Assembly: GCA_013201405.1 (NCBI GenBank)
Contig: JABMJC010000015.1
Coordinates: forward strand, 1 to 32,207
Origin: Desulfobulbaceae bacterium
GTDB taxonomy: Bacteria; Desulfobacterota; Desulfobulbia; Desulfobulbales; Desulfobulbaceae
Direction of reading: 5' to 3'
Length of the DNA: 32,207 bases
The notes beneath the pieces are model-generated. The model searched no databases. It was not told the DNA's origin and worked only from the letters and a program-made list of their open reading frames with translations. Each line of letters opens with the position of its first letter. Positions within the stretch are counted from its first letter, which is position 1. The position numbers and the translations under genes were made by a program. This document shows positions 1 to 16,901 of the stretch, one piece after another.

Positions 1-1794
1 TTGACCATCCCCTGGCTCACCTTTACCCTACATCTTTCCCTCGACTCGCTGGCAGGCTTCTTTTTACTGCCTGTCTTGCTGATTGCCCCACTGGCCGCCC
101 TCTACGGCTACCACTATATGGATACGAGCCGGCACAGCCTGCGACCAGTGGCCAGCTGTCTCTTTTTCAACCTGCTCATTGCCGCCATGATCCTGGTGCC
201 GCTCGCCGCCGACATGCTCGCCTTTGTGGTGGCCTGGGAGCTGATGTCCTTTGCCTCCTTCATCCTGGTACTCTACGATTGGGAAGAGCGGCAGACTCGG
301 CGGGCAGCCCACATATACCTGCTTTTCTCCCAAGCCGGCGCTTTTGCCGTTTTTGCCGCCTTTGGTCTGCTTTTTGCCGCCACCGGCTCCTTTATCTTAA
401 ACTCCGGCGCATTTGCTGCCCTGTCGCACGAGTTGAAGCTAGCCGCCTTTCTCCTGGCGCTCTTGGGCTTTGGCTCCAAGGCCGGGATAATGCCCCTGCA
501 TGTCTGGCTGCCTCATGCCCATCCGGCAGCGCCTAGCCATGTCTCTGCCCTGATGTCGGGCGTGATGATCAAACTGGGCATTTATGGCATCCTCCGCATG
601 TACTTTCTCCTCGACGACTCTGCCCCGGTCTTTGCCTGGATAATTTTGGCTCTGGGCATAATCTCCGGCATTCTCGGGGTGGCCTATGCCCTGGCTAAAC
701 ACGACATCAAGCGCTTTCTCGCCTACCACAGCATTGAAAACATCGGCATCATCCTCATTGGCTGCGGCCTGGGCATGTTGGGTTTGGCCACGGGTGAGCG
801 CACCATGGCGGTTCTGGGTTTTACCGGCGGGCTCTTGCACGTGCTCAACCACGCCCTGTACAAGTCTTTGCTCTTTTTTGGAGCAGGCGCCATCCACCGC
901 AGTACCGGCACCCGCACCATCGATGCACTGGGTGGTTTGGTGCGGCGCATGCCTATTACCGGCCGCAGCTTTCTCACTGGCTCGGTTGCCATTTCCGGGC
1001 TGCCGCCGCTCAATGGTTTTGTCAGCGAATTTCTCATCTATTACGCTGGTTTTCTGGGTCTTCGTTTTAGTGGTATCAACCTTGTGCTGGTCATTGCCGC
1101 CATTGTCTCCTTGGCCATGATCGGCGGGCTGGCCACTGCCTGTTTCACCAAGGCGGTGGGCATTGTCTTTCTCGGCGAGCCGCGCAGCCCGCAGGCCAGC
1201 CAGGCCACTGAAGCCGGGCCAGCCATGCAAACCACCATGCTGGCGCTCACCTTCCTCTGCCTGTGCATCGGGCTTTTTCCCGGGCCCTTCATCCACGCCG
1301 CCTTTGCAGGGCTGCGCGATCTTGGTCCCATGGCCTCCTCCTTGCTGTCGGGTGATGTGCTTGCCGGCATCAGCCGTAATCTCACCCTGATTGCCTGGCT
1401 CTTTGTGGTTCTGCTGGCCGGCCTGGCTGGCCTGCGCCACCGGGCCTACCGCGACAAACCTGTAGAACGGGCTGCAACCTGGGGCTGCGGCTTTACCCAG
1501 GCCAGCAGCCGTATTCAGTATACCGGCACCTCCTATGCCATGGGCCCGGTCAATTTTTTTCGTCCCTTGGTGCTGGCGCGCAGCCAGTGCACCGGTCTGG
1601 CGCAAAAAATTCTGCCTGCCTCGGCCGAATACACCAGCAAGGCAGAGGATTTGGCCGAAACAACCCTGCAGCGTCTGCTGACCACGCCTGTACTGTGGCT
1701 GGCACAAAAGCTGCGCTGGATACAACACGGCCGTATTCAGTCGTATATCGCCTACATCGTGTTGACCATCATTGTTGTTCTTCTGCTCGTCTAG
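1..1794 (+). CDS. hyfB: Hydrogenase-4 component B / NuoL-like proton-translocating membrane subunit (may be cut at the left edge)
   Basis: Multi-TM protein with antiporter-like motifs (GSKAGIMPLHVWLPHAHPAAPSHVSALMSG, HDIKRFLAYHSIENIGII, HALYKSLLFFGAGAI). First gene of a tight hyf-like operon; TTG start lies at window base 1. Confidence 0.9.
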   Translation: MTIPWLTFTLHLSLDSLAGFFLLPVLLIAPLAALYGYHYMDTSRHSLRPVASCLFFNLLIAAMILVPLAADMLAFVVAWELMSFASFILVLYDWEERQTRRAAHIYLLFSQAGAFAVFAAFGLLFAATGSFILNSGAFAALSHELKLAAFLLALLGFGSKAGIMPLHVWLPHAHPAAPSHVSALMSGVMIKLGIYGILRMYFLLDDSAPVFAWIILALGIISGILGVAYALAKHDIKRFLAYHSIENIGIILIGCGLGMLGLATGERTMAVLGFTGGLLHVLNHALYKSLLFFGAGAIHRSTGTRTIDALGGLVRRMPITGRSFLTGSVAISGLPPLNGFVSEFLIYYAGFLGLRFSGINLVLVIAAIVSLAMIGGLATACFTKAVGIVFLGEPRSPQASQATEAGPAMQTTMLALTFLCLCIGLFPGPFIHAAFAGLRDLGPMASSLLSGDVLAGISRNLTLIAWLFVVLLAGLAGLRHRAYRDKPVERAATWGCGFTQASSRIQYTGTSYAMGPVNFFRPLVLARSQCTGLAQKILPASAEYTSKAEDLAETTLQRLLTTPVLWLAQKLRWIQHGRIQSYIAYIVLTIIVVLLLV

Positions 1795-1811
1795 CCAGGT
1801 TCGAGGTTACC

Positions 1812-2744
1812 ATGTCCGTTATACTCTCTGTTTTTTCCCTTGTCCTGGCCCTGGCCCTGGTGCCGCTCTTTCCCGGCATCATTCTCAAGGTCAAGGCCTT
1901 TTTCGCCGGTAAAAAGGGCCCACCCCTTTTCATCAAGTACTACACCCTGCTGAAGCTGCTGCGCAAAGGCTCGGTCTACAGCACCAGTAGCACCTTTGTC
2001 TTCCGCCTGGGGCCGATTTTTTCCTGCGCTGCCGCACTCATGGCCCTGCTCTTTTTCCCCTTGGCCTGGATGCAGCCTCTCTTCTCCTTTCAAGGCGACA
2101 TCATTGTGCTCTTGTACTTTTTTGCCTTGAGACGTTTTTTTACCATTGTCGCCGCCTTGGACACGGCCTCGCCCTTTGAGGGCATGGGAGCGGCGCGCGA
2201 GGCCTTTTTCGCCTTTTTGGCAGAGGCCACGCTTTTTGCCATGTTGATTCTCTTTTTCCGCATGAACGGCACCCTCAGTCTGGGCGAATACTTTGCCGGC
2301 CAGACACCGCTTTCCTTTGATGGATCTCGGGGGGCACTGCTGGTTTTGGTGGTCGTGGGTCTGTTCATGGTTATGCTGGCGGAAAATGCACGGGTACCAG
2401 TGGACGACCCGGCCACCCATCTGGAACTGACTATGATTCACGAGGCCATGATTTTGGATCACAGCGGGCCTGATCTGGCCACGATCGAACTGGGGGCCTT
2501 TTGCAAACTCTTTTTCTATGCCGCCTTTGTCGCTTCTCTGCTCAAGCCGGCCCAGTTGGTTTTAAACCCAGTGCTGGCCACTCTGCTGTTCTATGGTCTG
2601 GTCGTGCTGGTATATACAGTCATTGGCGTGGTTGAGTCCGGCACCGCCCGTTTGAAGATGCCACTGGTGCCCAAGTACCTGCTCACCTCCTTTGCCCTGG
2701 TCTTTTTTGCCATTATTCTCACCTCCCTGGAGTTCATTCAATGA
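1812..2744 (+). CDS. hyfC: Hydrogenase-4 component C / NuoH-like membrane subunit
   Basis: NuoH-like motifs (ENARVPVDDPATHLELTMIHEAMILDHSGPDLA). ATG at 1812 preferred over the long upstream extension in the ORF track, which overlaps hyfB. Confidence 0.9.
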   Translation: MSVILSVFSLVLALALVPLFPGIILKVKAFFAGKKGPPLFIKYYTLLKLLRKGSVYSTSSTFVFRLGPIFSCAAALMALLFFPLAWMQPLFSFQGDIIVLLYFFALRRFFTIVAALDTASPFEGMGAAREAFFAFLAEATLFAMLILFFRMNGTLSLGEYFAGQTPLSFDGSRGALLVLVVVGLFMVMLAENARVPVDDPATHLELTMIHEAMILDHSGPDLATIELGAFCKLFFYAAFVASLLKPAQLVLNPVLATLLFYGLVVLVYTVIGVVESGTARLKMPLVPKYLLTSFALVFFAIILTSLEFIQ

Positions 2745-3394
2745 TTGGTGGTATTGAAATCTTCCTGGCCATCATCCTGCTCTCTGTCCTTTTTTCGCTG
2801 ACCTCCAGTCGGATGATGTCCCTGATTAAACTGATGGGCCTGCAGGGAGCCTTGGTTTCCCTGATCCCGGTGCTGCTGGAAATAGAGAGCAGGATGCATC
2901 CGGGTGGCATCATCCTTTTTGTGGTCATGCTGGCCATCAAGGCCCTGTGCATTCCGGGCCTGCTCTACTTTGCCCTCACCCGCATCGTTATCGGGCGCGA
3001 GGTAGAACCACTGGTTGGCTACCATAGCTCGGTCGCGGTTGGCTTGGGGCTCATCCTGGTGGCTGCGTATATCGCCCACCACCTGAATATCTCTGTGGAG
3101 GGTGTGCACACCCTGGTGCTGACCACCGCCATCACCACCCTGGGTGGCGGCCTCTTTCTGATGATGAGCCGCAGCAAGGCCCTGAGCCAGGTCATTGGCT
3201 ACCTGATGATGGATAATGGCATCTACCTGATGGGCACGGCCCTGACCAGGCAAACGCGCAGCATCTACCTGGTAGAATTCGGCGTTCTGCTCGACCTGCT
3301 GGTGGCGGTGATGGTCATGGGGATCATCCTCAACAATATCAGCCGGGCCTTTGACGATGTCGATACCCTGGATCTCGAACAACTCAAGGACTGA
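2741..3394 (+). CDS. hyfE: Hydrogenase-4 component E-like membrane subunit
   Basis: ATGA overlap with hyfC; about 217 aa, hydrophobic, NuoK-like C-terminal half; operon position matches hyfE. Confidence 0.85.
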   Translation: MIGGIEIFLAIILLSVLFSLTSSRMMSLIKLMGLQGALVSLIPVLLEIESRMHPGGIILFVVMLAIKALCIPGLLYFALTRIVIGREVEPLVGYHSSVAVGLGLILVAAYIAHHLNISVEGVHTLVLTTAITTLGGGLFLMMSRSKALSQVIGYLMMDNGIYLMGTALTRQTRSIYLVEFGVLLDLLVAVMVMGIILNNISRAFDDVDTLDLEQLKD

Positions 3395-3397
3395 GCC

Positions 3398-4834
3398 ATG
3401 CTGGAATACATTTTTTTATTGCCTGTGTGTGTTGGTCTCGTCACCCTGATTCTGCCGCCGATACTTGGGCGAATCGCCCTGGTGTCCACCGGTGTCCTGC
3501 ATCTGCTCCTCAGTCTCAGGCTTTGGCTCGATGGCGGGCAGGCCTATTTTCCCGAATTTTTTGGCAAGGCGCATCCAGGCATGCTGGTGCTTTTGCTCAG
3601 TTCCTTTGTCTTTGCCTGGACCGCCCCCTATGCGGTCAGTTATATGCGGCAGCGGCCCACAAAATATGAAGCTGTTTTCAGCGGCTGCATGCTCCTTTTT
3701 CTGGGCACCATGAGTATGGCGGCCCTGGCCGAGCATCCCGTTGTTTTCTGGATAGCCATCGAGGCCACCACCCTGGCCAGTGCGCCCCTTATTTTTATTC
3801 ACCGCTCCAAGCAGGCACTGGAGGCCACCTGGAAGTACGTGCTCATCTGTTCCGTGGGCATTGCCCTGGCCCTTTTGGGTCTGTTCTTCATCACCTTTTC
3901 CATGGAAGGGGCCGGGCCGGATATCCCGCTCAGCTTTTCTTCCCTGAACAAGGTGGCGCCGCTGCTCAATCCGCTCTGGCTCAAGACCGGCTTTATTTTT
4001 GTGCTCATCGGTTTTGGCACCAAGATGGGCCTTGCGCCCATGCACACCTGGCTGCCCGATGCCCACAGCGAAGCGCCCAGTCCGGCCTCGGCCCTGCTCT
4101 CCGGCGCCTTGCTCAACTGTGCTTTTCTGGGCATCTATCAGGTGCACACCCTTATGGTCCTGGCAGGGCTCGGTGCCTTCTCCAGCAACCTGCTCATTGG
4201 GTTCGGCCTTTTTTCCCTGCTGGTGGCCGGCGTTTTCATCCTCAACCAGCCGGATTACAAGCGGATGCTGGCTTACTCCAGTATTGAAAACATGGGCATC
4301 ATTGCCATTGGCACCGGTATCGGCGGACTGGGCCTGTTCGGGGCCATGCTCCACCTCATCCACCATTCCCTGCTCAAATCTTCCCTCTTTCTTTCGGCCG
4401 GCACCATCATGCGCACCTATGGCAGCAAGCTGATCAGCCAGTGCGCCAACATGCCCCGCGTGCTCCCCAAGACCTTTTGCTGCTATTTTGCAGCCTGTCT
4501 CGGTATTGCCGGTCTGCCGCCCTTTGGCCTTTTTATCAGCGAGGTGCTGATTCTTTTTGCCGCCTTTCAGCGGGGTCTGCCTGTGGTTGGCCTGCTTTTT
4601 GTCATTCTGTTGATTCTGGTTATCGCCGGTTTTGCCCAGGGAGCACTGCGTATGTCTTTGGGCCAGGAGAGCGACACCCAGGCTGCACTCCGCCCCAGGG
4701 AAAAGGTCTTGCAATTCCTGCCGCCTCTGGCCCTGTTGCTCAGCTCGCTTGTGCTCTGTCTCTGGATACCTGAACCGCTGCGGCAGGTTATTAACGACAG
4801 CATTGTCCTTTTGGGGGGCGTGATTCATGGATAG
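3398..4834 (+). CDS. hyfF: Hydrogenase-4 component F / NuoN/M-like antiporter subunit
   Basis: Motifs GFGTKMGLAPMHTWLPDAHSEAPSPASALLSGALLN and DYKRMLAYSSIENMGIIAIG; operon position. Confidence 0.9.
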   Translation: MLEYIFLLPVCVGLVTLILPPILGRIALVSTGVLHLLLSLRLWLDGGQAYFPEFFGKAHPGMLVLLLSSFVFAWTAPYAVSYMRQRPTKYEAVFSGCMLLFLGTMSMAALAEHPVVFWIAIEATTLASAPLIFIHRSKQALEATWKYVLICSVGIALALLGLFFITFSMEGAGPDIPLSFSSLNKVAPLLNPLWLKTGFIFVLIGFGTKMGLAPMHTWLPDAHSEAPSPASALLSGALLNCAFLGIYQVHTLMVLAGLGAFSSNLLIGFGLFSLLVAGVFILNQPDYKRMLAYSSIENMGIIAIGTGIGGLGLFGAMLHLIHHSLLKSSLFLSAGTIMRTYGSKLISQCANMPRVLPKTFCCYFAACLGIAGLPPFGLFISEVLILFAAFQRGLPVVGLLFVILLILVIAGFAQGALRMSLGQESDTQAALRPREKVLQFLPPLALLLSSLVLCLWIPEPLRQVINDSIVLLGGVIHG

Positions 4835-6347
4835 CCTCATGCTTAAAATCAATAACGGCGAGCGCATTGACCGTAGCCAGATTCCCCGAGTCTCCAGCGA
4901 GTTGTTCCACCGTCAGCTTAGCCAGTTTGTGCGCAACAACGGCTTTATCGTGCAGTTTTTCGCTTATCCGGAAGACAAGCAGATGGTACTTTTGGCTGTG
5001 CTGCGCAATAGCGACCTCTTTATTCTGGAAACCACGGTTGGCCGCGAATTTCCCTCGCTCACCCTAAATGCGGGCCCACAGTTCAACCTGTTTGAGCGGG
5101 AGGTGGCCGAGCAGTATGGCCTGCGCCCGGCCGGGCACCCATGGTTGAAGATGCTGCGCTACCATGCCAACAAGAGTGATAAGCCAGATGTGTTCGGCAA
5201 TAACTACGAAGAGGAGATTCCCGGCAACTACCCTTACTTTCAGGTGCAGGGTGAGTCGGTGCACGAGGTGGCAGTTGGGCCAGTGCATGCCGGCATCATC
5301 GAGCCGGGCCACTTTCGCTTTCAGTGTGCAGGCGAGGAGGTGCTGCACCTGGAAATCCAGTTGGGTTATCAGCACCGTGGGGTAGAAGAGCTGTTGCAGA
5401 CCGTGCCACACAAACGGCTTATCACCATTGCCGAAGGCATTGCCGGAGACACCAGCATCGGTCACAACCTCTCTTGCTGCCAGGCCCTGGAGGCACTGTG
5501 CGGGCTTGAGGTGGCAGGCGGGGCCAGCACGCAGCGTACCATTGCCCTTGAGCTGGAGCGCCTGGCCAACCACATCGGTGATCTTGGTGCGTTGAGTGGT
5601 GATGTGGCCTTTAACCCGCCGGCAGCGTACTTTGGCCGCATCCGCGGTGAATTCCTCAACCTGTTGTTGGCGCTGAGCGGTAACCGCTTTGGCAAGGGCT
5701 TGATCCGCCCTGGTGGCACGGCCTTTGCTATGGGGCAGGAGGCGCGCCAGGTGATTGCAAATAAAATCAAAGAATTGCGCCCAGAGATCCTCCATGTTTG
5801 TGACCTGCTCTTCACCGCCCACACGGTTTTGGCGCGTTTTGAACGAACCGGCACCGTCACCAGGGAGCATGCACAGGCGCTTGGCCTGGTGGGAGTGTGT
5901 GGCCGGGCCTCTGGGCTTGACTATGATGTACGGGAGTTTTTTCCGACCGAGTGCTATGGGGATCTGCCCACAATTAGCAACAAGGTGACCAGTGGCGATG
6001 TGCTGAGCCGGGCCATGGTGCGACAGGAGGAGATCGTACACTCGTTAAACGCCATTGACCTGCTGCTGGCCAGAGAAGAAGAACCGTGTCAGCCCGTGCC
6101 TGTAGAGGGCACAGACTATGCCCTGGCTCCCTCGAGCTGCGTGGTCACCTTAAACGAGGGCTGGCGTGGAGAAATCTCCCACTGCCTTTTGACCGATGAC
6201 CAGGGCCAGCTCATCCGCTACAAGATCAAGGATCCCTCCTTCCACAACTGGCCGGGCCTGGCCATGGCCCTGCGCAATCAGGAGATTTCCGATTTTCCTC
6301 TGTGCAACAAGAGCTTTAACTTGAGCTACTGCGGTTTTGACCTCTAG
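4827..6347 (+). CDS. Hydrogenase large-subunit-like protein (NuoC-NuoD fusion, HycE/HyfG-like) lacking the [NiFe] cysteine ligands
   Basis: N-terminal NuoC-like domain (FNLFEREVAEQYGLRPAGHP) followed by NuoD-like domain (HRGVEELLQTVPHKRLITIAEGIAGDTSIGHN). Expected CxxC reads GIAGDTS; the C-terminal ligand motif reads NLSYCGFDL. Overlaps hyfF by 8 bp. Confidence 0.88.
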   Translation: MDSLMLKINNGERIDRSQIPRVSSELFHRQLSQFVRNNGFIVQFFAYPEDKQMVLLAVLRNSDLFILETTVGREFPSLTLNAGPQFNLFEREVAEQYGLRPAGHPWLKMLRYHANKSDKPDVFGNNYEEEIPGNYPYFQVQGESVHEVAVGPVHAGIIEPGHFRFQCAGEEVLHLEIQLGYQHRGVEELLQTVPHKRLITIAEGIAGDTSIGHNLSCCQALEALCGLEVAGGASTQRTIALELERLANHIGDLGALSGDVAFNPPAAYFGRIRGEFLNLLLALSGNRFGKGLIRPGGTAFAMGQEARQVIANKIKELRPEILHVCDLLFTAHTVLARFERTGTVTREHAQALGLVGVCGRASGLDYDVREFFPTECYGDLPTISNKVTSGDVLSRAMVRQEEIVHSLNAIDLLLAREEEPCQPVPVEGTDYALAPSSCVVTLNEGWRGEISHCLLTDDQGQLIRYKIKDPSFHNWPGLAMALRNQEISDFPLCNKSFNLSYCGFDL

Positions 6348-6407
6348 CAGCAGGCCTATAACAGCACAGAAGGAAATACAGGGCCATTCAATCAGGAACA
6401 CGAACCA

Positions 6408-7172
6408 ATGTATAAAATCATCCGCAACCGGCTGGAACAGGGCCATCGCACCAGCAGCTACCCCAAAAAACCAATCCAGCTACCTGCCATCTACCGGGGC
6501 TTGCCCATGGTCAATGCAGACAGCTCGCTTACGTTAGCCCGCCGCTGCGCAGAGCTGTGCCCGCAAAACGCCATTCTGGCCGAAGAGAGAAAAATTGATT
6601 TGGGCCGCTGCACCTTTTGCGGCCGCTGCGCCGAGGTGCAGGAAGGGGATGGGGATTATTTTGTCCGCTTCAGTCAGCGCTTTGAACTGGCTGCAGTCCG
6701 CCGGGAAGACCTGATCACCAGCGGCTCTCTGCCTGAACTGGCACAGCACGCCAAAGAGCAGATCACCAAGCTCTTTGGCCGCTCTCTGCAGTTGCGGCAG
6801 GTCTCAGCAGGCGGCTGCAATGCCTGCGAGGCAGATATCAACGTACTGGGCACCCCTTTTTTTTTTTTGTCCCGCTTTGGTATAGACTTTGTCGCCTCGC
6901 CCCGCCATGCCGATGGCATCATGGTCACCGGGCCCATCAGTCGCAATATGCGGAGTGCCCTCATGGATACCTATCAGGCCGTGCCTGCGCCCAAGGTGGT
7001 CATTGCCGCTGGCTGCTGCGCCATTTCCGGCGGCCCTTTCCATGGTTCTGCCGAAATCATCGGCGATTTGAATACCCTGCTGCCAGTGGATCTGTACATC
7101 CCCGGCTGCCCGCCCCATCCGCTCACCACCCTGCACGCGCTGTTGGCCTATTTCAAGCAGGTGCAGAGCTGA
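6408..7172 (+). CDS. NuoB/HyfI-like small subunit with N-terminal ferredoxin-like domain
   Basis: NuoB-type N2 ligands present (GGCNACEADINVLG, AAGCCAISGGPF, PGCPPHP) plus FVASPRHADGIMVTGP. N-terminal RRCAELCPQNAI...LGRCTFCGRCAEVQ ferredoxin-like motif. Confidence 0.88.
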   Translation: MYKIIRNRLEQGHRTSSYPKKPIQLPAIYRGLPMVNADSSLTLARRCAELCPQNAILAEERKIDLGRCTFCGRCAEVQEGDGDYFVRFSQRFELAAVRREDLITSGSLPELAQHAKEQITKLFGRSLQLRQVSAGGCNACEADINVLGTPFFFLSRFGIDFVASPRHADGIMVTGPISRNMRSALMDTYQAVPAPKVVIAAGCCAISGGPFHGSAEIIGDLNTLLPVDLYIPGCPPHPLTTLHALLAYFKQVQS

Positions 7173-7353: not shown

Positions 7354-8610
7354 ATGAACACGCTGGATAAACTGACCATTCTGGCGGATGCGGCCAAGTT
7401 TGATGCCTCCTGCGCCTCCAGCGGCAGTAACCGCAAGGCAAAACCCGGAGCCCTGGGTAATGCCGCAGCATCCGGCATTTGCCATAGCTGGTCAGCGGAC
7501 GGCCGCTGCATCTCGCTGCTCAAAATCCTGCTCAGTAACGACTGCCGCCTTGACTGCGTCTACTGCATGAGCCGCCGTTCCAATCACTGCGCCAGAGCCA
7601 CCTTTACCCCAGATGAGGTGGCTGATCTCACCATCAACTTCTACCGGCGCAACTATATCGAAGGGCTTTTCCTCAGCTCTGCCGTCTATGCCAGCCCGGA
7701 ACAGACCATGAGCGACATGGTGGATGTCTGCCACCAGCTCCGCACCAAATATGCCTTTAATGGCTATATTCATCTGAAAGTAATACCCGGTGCACCGCAG
7801 GAATTGGTTGCCAAAGCGGGCATGCTGGCCGACCGTTTGAGCGTGAACATTGAACTGCCCTCGGCAGCATCGCTAAAGGAGCTGGCACCACAAAAATCAC
7901 GGCAGGGCATCCTCACACCCATGCGGCAAATTGGCGAAGCAGCGAGTAACTATGGCGCGGAACGAAAAAAATCTCGCCGCACACCAAAATTTTGCCCAGC
8001 AGGCCAATCCACCCAGATGATTATCGGCGCAAGCGCCGAGAGCGACTTGCACATCCTCACCCTGTCGCAAAGCCTGTACACCAAAATGCAACTGCGGCGG
8101 GTCTATTATTCGGCATATATAGCGGTGAACAGCGCGCCCAACCTGCCCATGCCGAGCACTGCGCCGCCGCTGGTGCGCGAGCACCGGCTCTATCAGGCCG
8201 ACTGGCTCATACGCTTCTACCAGTTTCAGGCCGAAGAAATTCTGCAAGCCACAGCTCCCAATCTGGATGAACGGCTTGACCCCAAGGCGGCCTGGGCCCT
8301 GCGTCATTTTGATTTGTTTCCCCTTGATATCAATCGGGCCAGCTATGAAGAACTGCTTCGGGTGCCGGGCCTGGGCCTAACTTCAGCACGTCGCATCATT
8401 GCCACCAGAAGGGTGGCGGCCATCCGCGAAGAAGACTTGAAAAAACTGGGCCTGGTGATGAAACGGGCCCGCTATTTTTTATCCATCAACGGCAAAAAGC
8501 TGGTTGCCGCCATCCCCTCCCATCAAGACTTGCTGACCGCCATGTGCCGCCTGGAAAAACCGGCCATCAGCCACCTTAGCCCGCAGTATCGGCAGCTTAG
8601 ACTGTTCTAG
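7354..8610 (+). CDS. Radical SAM protein, putative DNA modification/repair (TIGR03916-like)
   Basis: CxxxCxxC motif (NDCRLDCVYCMSRRSNHC) and C-terminal helix-hairpin-helix (DINRASYEELLRVPGLGLTSARRIIATRR). Immediately followed by its typical partner gene. Confidence 0.85.
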   Translation: MNTLDKLTILADAAKFDASCASSGSNRKAKPGALGNAAASGICHSWSADGRCISLLKILLSNDCRLDCVYCMSRRSNHCARATFTPDEVADLTINFYRRNYIEGLFLSSAVYASPEQTMSDMVDVCHQLRTKYAFNGYIHLKVIPGAPQELVAKAGMLADRLSVNIELPSAASLKELAPQKSRQGILTPMRQIGEAASNYGAERKKSRRTPKFCPAGQSTQMIIGASAESDLHILTLSQSLYTKMQLRRVYYSAYIAVNSAPNLPMPSTAPPLVREHRLYQADWLIRFYQFQAEEILQATAPNLDERLDPKAAWALRHFDLFPLDINRASYEELLRVPGLGLTSARRIIATRRVAAIREEDLKKLGLVMKRARYFLSINGKKLVAAIPSHQDLLTAMCRLEKPAISHLSPQYRQLRLF

Positions 8611-8611
8611 C

Positions 8612-9382
8612 ATGGAACCTGTGGTTTACCTGTATGACGGCACTTTTGCCGGCATGCTCCATGCAATTGCCCGAGCCGTGAAGGATGGCGGTGCAGTGCA
8701 TGCCATTACCCCGACCCATCGCTATACACCCACCTTGTTTGATACGGTCATCACCCTGAAATGTGATGCCGATCAGGCAGACCGCCTCCTGCAGTATCTG
8801 CAGAACCTGCATCCCTTGGCTGCCAATCTGGCGGTCTATGCCTATCTCAGTGGGGAGGGCGGGGTGGAAATGCAGATGTATAGCTTTGTGCACCTGTGTC
8901 TGCGCCGTGGCAAACAGGCGCTCTCCTACGAAAGCCATAGCGCTGTTGCCCACTTAAAAGGGCTTTTTCATGCCGTTTCCCGCGAAGCGCACCGCTACAA
9001 GGGGCTGATCCGTTTCCGCATTCTGGCGGATGATTTGCAATACGGCCCCTTTGAACCCCACTACAACATCATTTCCCTGTGCGCCCGGCATTTTAGGCGG
9101 CGCTTGGCCGGGTGCCGCTGGCTCCTGCACGACCTGCAGCGCAATAGCGCGCTCTACTGGGATACCGTGGATTTACAGCCGGTGGAGGTGGATACTGATT
9201 TTGCCGCCTACGTGGCTCTGCACGGAGAAGTACCGGCGGCACAGCTGAGCGAGAACGAACAGGAGTACCAGCAGCTATGGCGCGCTTTTCATAGGGCCAT
9301 CAGCAACCCGGCCCGGCATAATCCGCAGTTACAACAACAGGGCATGCCGCAGCGCTACTGGAAATATCTCACCGAGATGTGA
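8612..9382 (+). CDS. Putative DNA metabolism/repair protein (TIGR03915/DUF4130-like), partner of the upstream radical SAM protein
   Basis: VVYLYDGTFAGMLHAIARAV N-terminus, AHRYKGLIRFRIL core and QRYWKYLTEM C-terminus match this family by recall. Starts 1 nt after the upstream stop codon. Confidence 0.8.
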   Translation: MEPVVYLYDGTFAGMLHAIARAVKDGGAVHAITPTHRYTPTLFDTVITLKCDADQADRLLQYLQNLHPLAANLAVYAYLSGEGGVEMQMYSFVHLCLRRGKQALSYESHSAVAHLKGLFHAVSREAHRYKGLIRFRILADDLQYGPFEPHYNIISLCARHFRRRLAGCRWLLHDLQRNSALYWDTVDLQPVEVDTDFAAYVALHGEVPAAQLSENEQEYQQLWRAFHRAISNPARHNPQLQQQGMPQRYWKYLTEM

Positions 9383-16127: not shown

Positions 16128-16901
16128 ATGAAAACACGGAAAAAGGTAATTCTGACTTCTGTCCTGGCAGCCACTTTTGTTTTAGCAGGCGGCTACGCTG
16201 CTGCGGAAGAAACCACCACCTGGAAACAGGCAGGGAGCGAAATAAAGGAAGCTGGTTCCCAGGTTAAAGATGCTGCAGGCGCAGTAGTCGATGCCACGGT
16301 TGATTCCAGCAAAAAGGCTTGGGACAAGGTGAGCACTACCACTGGTGATGCCGTGAATGCTGTTCAGGAAAAGAGTTCAGCCGCATGGGAAAAGACCAAG
16401 GAAGAGGCCAGGGAAGCAAAGGAAAACATCAAGGATGCTGGTCAGGAAGCCAAGGTAAAGAGTGAAAGGGCCGTAGAAAAGACCAAAGAAGCTGGCCAGG
16501 AAGCCAAGGCAAAGACTGAAAGGGCCGTAGAAAAGGCTGAGGTTAAACACCAGAAAGCTGTAGAAAAGGCCGAAGCTAAAAGCAAGGAAGCCGTAGAAAA
16601 GACCAAAGAAGCCGGCCAGGAGGCCAAGGCCAAAACTGAAGATGCGGTAGAGAAGGTCGAAGCCAAGACTGAAAAGGCCGTAGAAAAGGCTGAAGCTCAA
16701 AGCAAGGAAGCTGTAGAAAAGACCAAAGAAGCCGGCCAGGAGGCCAAGGCCAAAGCTGAAGATGCAGTCGAGAAGGCCGAGGCCAAGACTGAAGATGCGG
16801 TAGAGAAGGCCGAGGCTGAGAGCAAGAAAGCTGCAGAAGAAACCAAGGAAGCGGTAGACAAGGTCAGGGCTGAGGTCCACGAAGCCACTGCCCCCAAATG
16901 A
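16128..16901 (+). CDS. Exported Ala/Glu/Lys-rich helical repeat protein (LEA/apolipoprotein-like)
   Basis: Signal peptide-like N-terminus (MKTRKKVILTSVLAATFVLAGGYAAAEE). Repeats of AVEKTKEAGQEAKAKTEDAVEKAEAK; charged with few aromatics. Confidence 0.8.
   Translation: MKTRKKVILTSVLAATFVLAGGYAAAEETTTWKQAGSEIKEAGSQVKDAAGAVVDATVDSSKKAWDKVSTTTGDAVNAVQEKSSAAWEKTKEEAREAKENIKDAGQEAKVKSERAVEKTKEAGQEAKAKTERAVEKAEVKHQKAVEKAEAKSKEAVEKTKEAGQEAKAKTEDAVEKVEAKTEKAVEKAEAQSKEAVEKTKEAGQEAKAKAEDAVEKAEAKTEDAVEKAEAESKKAAEETKEAVDKVRAEVHEATAPK
16441..16860 (+). repeat. Tandem repeat with 120-bp (40-aa) period, about 3.5 copies, inside the CDS
   Basis: 16441-16560, 16561-16680 and 16681-16800 align without gaps (e.g. 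CCGTAGAAAAGACCAAAGAAGC(T/C)GGCCAGGA at the same offset); partial fourth copy to about 16860. Confidence 0.9.

Follow-up and report, generated by a model that had tools for sequence, protein, structure and literature searches.

What can a complex built like hydrogenase-4 do once its large subunit has lost every cysteine that would hold a [NiFe] site? The question is raised by a six-gene operon at positions 1–7172 of a 32,207 nt Desulfobulbaceae contig (the window, which is the whole contig; the host genome is 2.46 Mb in 185 contigs). An earlier note, made from the letters of this DNA, had read the operon as an Ehr-type, ion-pumping complex with a substrate other than H2, possibly a quinone or small redox carrier. 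The genes (Table 1) follow the order HyfB-HyfC-HyfE-HyfF-EhrL-EhrS, which is the same in about 100 loci. The 5′ gene is truncated by the contig edge, its alignment to the NCBIfam hydrogenase 4 subunit B model beginning at model residue 69, and for the HyfC-type gene the ATG at 1812 was chosen as the start, the listed ORF beginning at 1587.

Table 1. Positions of the Ehr operon genes and of the sites discussed in the text.
Feature	Position	Strand	Basis
HyfB/EhrA-type antiporter-like membrane subunit	1..1794	+	5′ end missing at contig edge; Pfam Proton_antipo_M 176 bits
HyfC/HycD/NuoH-type membrane anchor subunit	1812..2744	+	Pfam NADHdh 89 bits; HyfC/HycD alignment
HyfE-type membrane subunit	2741..3394	+	NCBIfam hydrogenase 4 membrane subunit, E 5e-18; Pfam NuoK-like
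HyfF-type antiporter-like subunit	3398..4834	+	Proton_antipo_M 172 bits; hydrogenase 4 subunit F
EhrL large subunit (NuoC + NuoD/HycE-like), without [NiFe] ligands	4827..6347	+	ORF, Pfam, alignment, structure match
EhrL E159 codon, equivalent of MbhL E21 (proton-transfer glutamate)	5301..5303	+	Alignments; invariant in 69 relatives
EhrL ex-first CxxC motif, AEGIAGDTSIGH	5430..5465	+	Translation, alignment, conservation
EhrL ex-second CxxC motif, SFNLSYCGFDL, C-terminus	6312..6344	+	Translation, alignment, conservation
EhrS small subunit, HycF/HyfH/NuoI-like ferredoxin domain fused to HycG/HyfI/NuoB-like domain	6408..7172	+	Family matches, alignments
EhrS residues 39–78, degraded outer [4Fe-4S] (N6a-type) site	6522..6641	+	S39/S40, A44, Q78; C47 left
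EhrS inner ferredoxin cluster (N6b-type) ligands C51, C68, C71, C74, kept	6558..6629	+	Ligand alignment
EhrS proximal (N2-type) cluster ligands C137, C140, C204, C234, hydrogenase-type CxxC spacing, kept	6816..7109	+	Ligand alignment

The EhrL reading frame is intact and encodes 506 amino acids. It gives a partial NuoD-family match to Pfam Complex1_49kDa (113 bits), with the NuoC part slightly under the cut-off. In sequence searches, HycE from the formate hydrogenlyase of Escherichia coli was the nearest chain of solved structure, with E 7.5e-41, or 5e-67 when a family profile was used. EhrL was aligned with E. coli HycE and HyfG, two Ech-type large subunits and three NuoD paralogues from the host genome. 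In this alignment, FLSDRVCGICGFAH aligned with TIAEGIAGDTSIGH without gaps, and the HycE-side SLDPCYSCTDR aligned, again without gaps, with SFNLSYCGFDL. The four [NiFe] cysteine positions are thereby placed at A206, T209, S500 and G503 of EhrL, and the four cysteines were found in none of 69 EhrL relatives. A disguised hydrogenase with displaced ligands was rejected on these grounds. The earlier note had claimed that both CxxC pairs are gone from an intact frame and NuoC/NuoD context, and the gap-free alignment, which disclosed no cysteines at shifted positions, bears this out. Its coordinates for the first motif were exact; it also read the C-terminal motif correctly, giving a start (6318) that is 6 bases late, the stop codon occupying 6345–6347.

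One cysteine remains close by. C502 sits between the last two ex-ligand positions rather than at one, and is Ala in 6 of the 69 relatives; it is therefore not universally catalytic, and was discarded as a candidate universally essential thiol. EhrL stops at ...FDL* and has nothing of the C-terminal tail with which HycE continues beyond DPCYSCTDR.

Group 4 [NiFe] hydrogenases are recognized by four Cys ligands (RxCxxC and DPCxxC), a C-terminal extension that is removed by a protease and dependence on the Hyp maturation genes. EhrL has neither the ligands nor the extension. Nor does Ehr appear to depend on Hyp, as HypD was undetected in 19 of 49 EhrL genomes (one assembly was apparently counted twice, hence about 18 of 48), and one EhrL genome, 93% complete, is without HypD and also without a PF00374 hydrogenase of any kind. 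Compared with E. coli hydrogenase-3 and -4 (Hyc/Hyf), the closest systems by structure, the operon shares subunit types HyfB, C, E, F, G, H and I. However, it has no HyfA/HycB, HyfD, HycI or FdhF, and the counterparts of HyfH and HyfI are a single EhrS protein.

The residues that ion pumps of the complex I superfamily conserve in their antiporter-like subunits are present. The charged residues of E. coli Hyf are matched in HyfB by E80, K191, H280/H284/K288 and E343, and in HyfF by E122, H319/H323/K327 and E382. These residues and the Ehr genomes without HypD fit the earlier proposal of an ion-pumping complex with a substrate other than H2.

Present in many phyla, Ehr is usually noted as 'function unknown', and one recent paper, on Geobacter KN400, called it non-functional for want of a [NiFe] site (PMC13194489). 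Besides the lost site, a non-functional hydrogenase relic would account for the one or two iron-sulfur clusters missing in some lineages and for the missense mutations in two ehr genes of electrode-evolved Geobacter (PMC13194489). Conservation was scored over 69 EhrL relatives from more than 10 phyla. Identity to the commonest residue was 97% in the L0 segment (residues 148–166) and 96% over the C-terminal 18 residues, compared with 63% for the whole of EhrL, and few stretches of EhrL are as well conserved as the ex-ligand segments. E159, H162, R164, G207, D208, S500, Y501 and G503 are invariant in all 69. Against two close relatives, dN/dS was 0.10 and 0.08. By these sequence measures EhrL is under strong selection and is not decaying. 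Conservation and dN/dS thus argue against the statement of PMC13194489, as do retention of the entire operon and the production and regulation of the Ehr proteins (PMC7894505), and we regard a relic as extremely unlikely. Because the replacement residues are nearly unchanged across many phyla, Ehr is very probably a working machine. An AlphaFold2 model of EhrL built from the 69-sequence alignment had a mean pLDDT of 89.6 and a pTM of 0.92, with low values at residues 153–158 and the last five residues, and its best match in the PDB was HycE over the whole chain (7z0s_E, TM 0.85).

Ehr is an already known family, found in Geobacter, Nitrospira and others; what marks the window's type as a variant is its shortened electron wire. 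The subunit names EhrA, B, C, D, L and S, and the genes GSU0739–0745, come from Geobacter sulfurreducens (PMC7894505), whose operon content and ligand-free EhrL are as in the window; in Geobacter the EhrA genes carry numbers (EhrA-1, EhrA-2). An Ehr operon comprises antiporter-like EhrA and EhrD, NuoH-like EhrB, HyfE-like EhrC, EhrL and EhrS, and the six window genes match this set. EhrL of the Geobacteraceae belongs to the same family as that of the window, with about 46% identity, and from these likenesses we infer that the window operon is the complex named there. The Ehr assignment of the earlier note is upheld by the shared six-gene operon, the common family with the Geobacteraceae loci and the missing [NiFe] ligands. 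In a tree, all EhrL sequences form one group (SH-aLRT 99) apart from HycE/HyfG, Ech and NuoD. The tree includes Geobacter argillaceus and Geomonas, the G. sulfurreducens EhrL itself lying outside the set. The deep order among EhrL, HycE, Ech and NuoD is unsafe, with long branches meeting, and was left unused. The window EhrL and 14 others form a Desulfobulbales-type clade with support 100. Relatives of EhrL occupy at least 592 places in a species-wide genome collection, and the best 80 of these lie in Desulfobulbales, Geobacteraceae, Planctomycetota, Verrucomicrobiota, Omnitrophota, Acidobacteriota, Myxococcota, Methylococcaceae, Zixibacteria, Riflebacteria, Spirochaetota and others. Within the host family, about 36 of 76 genomes carry one, a count that takes in the listed places with an identity of at least about 45%.

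The shortening of the wire is seen in EhrS, a 254-residue fusion of the HycF-HycG type. The earlier note had passed over both the fusion and the missing cluster. Which cluster of its ferredoxin domain is inner and which outer was assigned from the ligand order of NuoI, which we take to apply here. Ligands for two [4Fe-4S] clusters in this domain are present in 58 of 94 EhrS sequences, and those of the proximal cluster in 92–93 of 94. Geomonas and most other Ehr keep the outer ligands, whereas the window's lineage has lost them: the outer (N6a-type) cluster is short of ligands in 28 of 28 Desulfobulbales-type EhrS, including that of the window, where C47 is the sole survivor of four. Mapped on the EhrL tree, this loss falls at the base of the Desulfobulbales-type clade, with five changes overall. 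Three Omnitrophota EhrS (L068, L074 and L115) go further, both ferredoxin clusters having disappeared while the proximal site is kept. A search of the accessible literature found no earlier mention of outer-cluster loss in EhrS, and we report as new, from the aligned ligand positions, a fusion whose outer [4Fe-4S] ligands are gone throughout the Desulfobulbales-type clade. A single-sequence structure prediction of EhrS (pLDDT 34) was left out of the analysis.

The shortened wire bears on the possibility that Ehr works with formate dehydrogenase as a formate-linked pump, as suggested earlier for Margulisbacteria (PMC6349859). The nearest structure, HycE, comes from formate hydrogenlyase, and in G. 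sulfurreducens every Ehr subunit is present in larger amounts on formate than with H2 (PMC7894505). However, no formate dehydrogenase, HycB-like, NuoE or NuoF gene was recognized as a regular part of the operon in about 100 Ehr loci. EhrS also lacks the C-terminal metal site through which HycF contacts HycB/FdhF (PMC9474812), and the outer cluster, which would receive the electrons, is missing in the window's lineage. We therefore consider a dedicated partnership with formate dehydrogenase unlikely. The rise of the Geobacter proteins on formate is the only physiological lead to Ehr.

A second possibility is a complex I-like oxidoreductase without its NADH module, passing electrons from ferredoxin or formate to quinone. 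Ehr has in common with complex I (NuoCD/NuoB/NuoI) the NuoC-NuoD fold and homologous NuoB, NuoI, NuoH, NuoK and antiporter modules, and many relatives make menaquinone, with futalosine-pathway matches in 22 of 46 EhrL genomes and MenD in 4 more. However, the two features by which complex I is recognized, the quinone-binding His38/Tyr87 pair and the NuoEFG input module, are both absent. In Nqo4 this pair holds the quinone head group; the corresponding positions in EhrL are Ile158 and Gly207 in 69 of 69 relatives. The NuoEFG genes of the host genome lie outside the Ehr operon, on a separate contig (C64) beside another NuoCD. Ehr instead has the hydrogenase-type L0 glutamate, and the proximal cluster of EhrS is of the hydrogenase CxxC type where complex I has adjacent cysteines (PMC7684303). 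Furthermore, 24 of the 46 genomes have no futalosine pathway and 20 of those have no MenD above the cut-off, a count that is indicative, as most are MAGs whose completeness is not known; about 3 of the 20 may make another quinone, having a strong UbiA match. These results weaken the earlier suggestion of a quinone as substrate, and we judge a quinone reductase improbable.

The archaeal MBS offers a third comparison. Like MBS, Ehr has neither [NiFe] function nor the quinone pair any longer; the host lineage, probably relatives of Desulfobulbus, lives in sulfidic habitats, and C502 is nearly invariant at the ex-ligand site, all of which would suit a sulfane-sulfur (polysulfide) reductase. However, MbsL retains two of the four [NiFe] cysteines and EhrL none. 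MBS is recognized by a shortened proximal motif with three cysteines, to which its catalysis is assigned, and by the loss of E21, the glutamate that in MbhL has a proton-transfer role (PMC7684303). EhrS has all four proximal ligands at hydrogenase spacing and EhrL has E159, so that a mechanism of the MBS type is disfavoured. Many Planctomycetota, Verrucomicrobiota and Myxococcota carry Ehr as well. A sulfur reductase therefore seems very unlikely.

On balance, we think it probable that Ehr couples electron transfer to ion translocation, neither making nor using H2, and this is our best explanation of the complex as a whole. A low-potential soluble donor, either ferredoxin or a loosely docking dehydrogenase, would give electrons to the ferredoxin domain of EhrS. 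In the window's lineage the donor would feed the inner cluster directly, because the outer cluster has been lost. From the inner cluster, electrons would move to the proximal [4Fe-4S] cluster and finally reach EhrL, whose vacated [NiFe] pocket would hold a small protonatable substrate; there the hydrogenase-type glutamate E159 would give or accept protons. The redox step would drive, via HyfC and HyfE, ion movement by the antiporter-like HyfF and HyfB. The aligned sequences show the loss of the [NiFe] and outer ligands, the retention of the proximal ligands and E159, intact antiporter residues and strong selection. Donor, direction, substrate and pumped ion are what we infer beyond these; for the substrate this is because no donor or acceptor gene linked to the operon was found in the Ehr loci compared. 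The EhrL pocket could also be closed and hold no substrate. The proximal-only EhrS of Omnitrophota would be hard to square with an external donor, unless the donor docks on the proximal cluster.

More tentatively, and with rather less confidence than in the coupling itself, we suggest that Ehr may represent a third way of using the hydrogenase/complex I scaffold without [NiFe], distinct from the quinone and polysulfide enzymes. It would combine a hydrogenase-type proton-transfer glutamate, a four-Cys proximal cluster and a new, hyper-conserved NKSxNLSYCGxDL pocket that would take a protonatable substrate not yet described, with a wire of two clusters in the Desulfobulbales-type clade and of one in some Omnitrophota. 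The residue map sets Ehr apart from its three solved relatives (MBH, MBS and complex I) by testable features. The stepwise loss of EhrS clusters provides natural variants with which to locate the docking site of the donor and to ask if an external donor is required at all; this has a bearing on how members of the complex I superfamily link redox chemistry to ion pumping.

The genes around Ehr loci were also compared. Among about 100 loci, no other redox enzyme was recognized as a regular part of the operon, and the recurrent or adjacent neighbours tested (a helicase, two-component regulators, GAPDH, PurF, MFS, a pyrophosphatase, an EAL/HDOD protein and cytidylate kinase) yielded no donor or acceptor. 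In 6 of the 23 Desulfobulbales-type loci whose flanks are long enough, the gene immediately upstream is LCIB-like (PF18599, slightly under the cut-off); SulP transporters are close to 7 loci in several phyla. Together these recall NDH-1/Cup or DAB, in which antiporter-like subunits and a carbonic-anhydrase-like protein serve inorganic-carbon or pH handling. However, the LCIB match is weak and the protein gave no match in a PDB sequence search; the window's genome and most relatives do not carry the gene, two genomes have it but no EhrL, and most Ehr loci have neither neighbour. The LCIB-like neighbour is real, but a carbonic-anhydrase link was set aside, as the gene is confined to a few loci and is not tied to EhrL, and a role in inorganic-carbon or pH handling appears highly improbable. 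The genes 3′ of the ehr operon in the window encode a radical SAM protein (TIGR03916) and a TIGR03915/DUF4130 protein; they are unrelated to it, and the window's species and its nearest relative are the only ones in which they adjoin Ehr.

The Ehr (Ech-hydrogenase-related) complex is present in G062, a 93% complete genome in which neither HypD nor a PF00374 hydrogenase was found. There EhrL, the large subunit without [NiFe] cysteines, is encoded on contig C91 of G062. In the genome of the window, three NuoD paralogues are present besides EhrL, each on a contig of its own. In the host family we also found a second, distinct group of HycE-like large subunits from which the [NiFe] cysteines are absent too, with the motifs AERFSGTSAFAH ... 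GLSNAECDR. The small subunit, EhrS, has lost both ferredoxin clusters at three Omnitrophota loci, and the proximal cluster alone is kept.

Outside Desulfobulbales, a regulator combining HTH_17 and PTS EIIA type-2 domains was found upstream of Ehr, in most cases directly, at 35 of the 55 loci with enough flank, suggesting that Ehr is controlled there by the PTS(Ntr) system. Regulator cluster c5 comprises a member at L042 and those of 39 other loci, and not all of these members showed a detectable HTH.

At seven Desulfobulbales-type loci, a protein with a weak but recurring match to LCIB-type carbonic anhydrase (PF18599) is encoded in line with Ehr. The LCIB-like proteins of G062 and of the cable bacterium Candidatus Electrothrix gigas share 100% identity. 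SulP transporters lie near Ehr at seven loci from several phyla.

Two further features of the window were noted: a radical SAM protein with a putative role in DNA repair (TIGR03916), paired with its DUF4130 partner (TIGR03915), and a repetitive 257-aa protein, rich in lysine, alanine and glutamate, with a signal-like N-terminus.

Positions of the features described (L, locus; C, contig of the window's genome)
Feature	Locus or contig	Positions
NuoD with NuoB-CD-E-F-G	C64	
NuoB-C-D-H-I and antiporter genes, NuoE/F/G absent	C91	
Another NuoD	C140	
Second HycE-like group, [NiFe] cysteines absent	L134	3741-5360
Same	L135	3810-5417
Same	L136	4065-5882
Same	L137	6106-7857
EhrS, proximal cluster only	L068	4675-5352
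Same	L074	3289-3966
Same	L115	11515-12183
Cluster c5 regulator	L042	13426-14157
LCIB-like protein	L061	3527-4708
Same	L033, L045, L056, L057, L060, L101	
Radical SAM protein and DUF4130 partner	window	7354-9382
Repetitive protein	window	16128-16901
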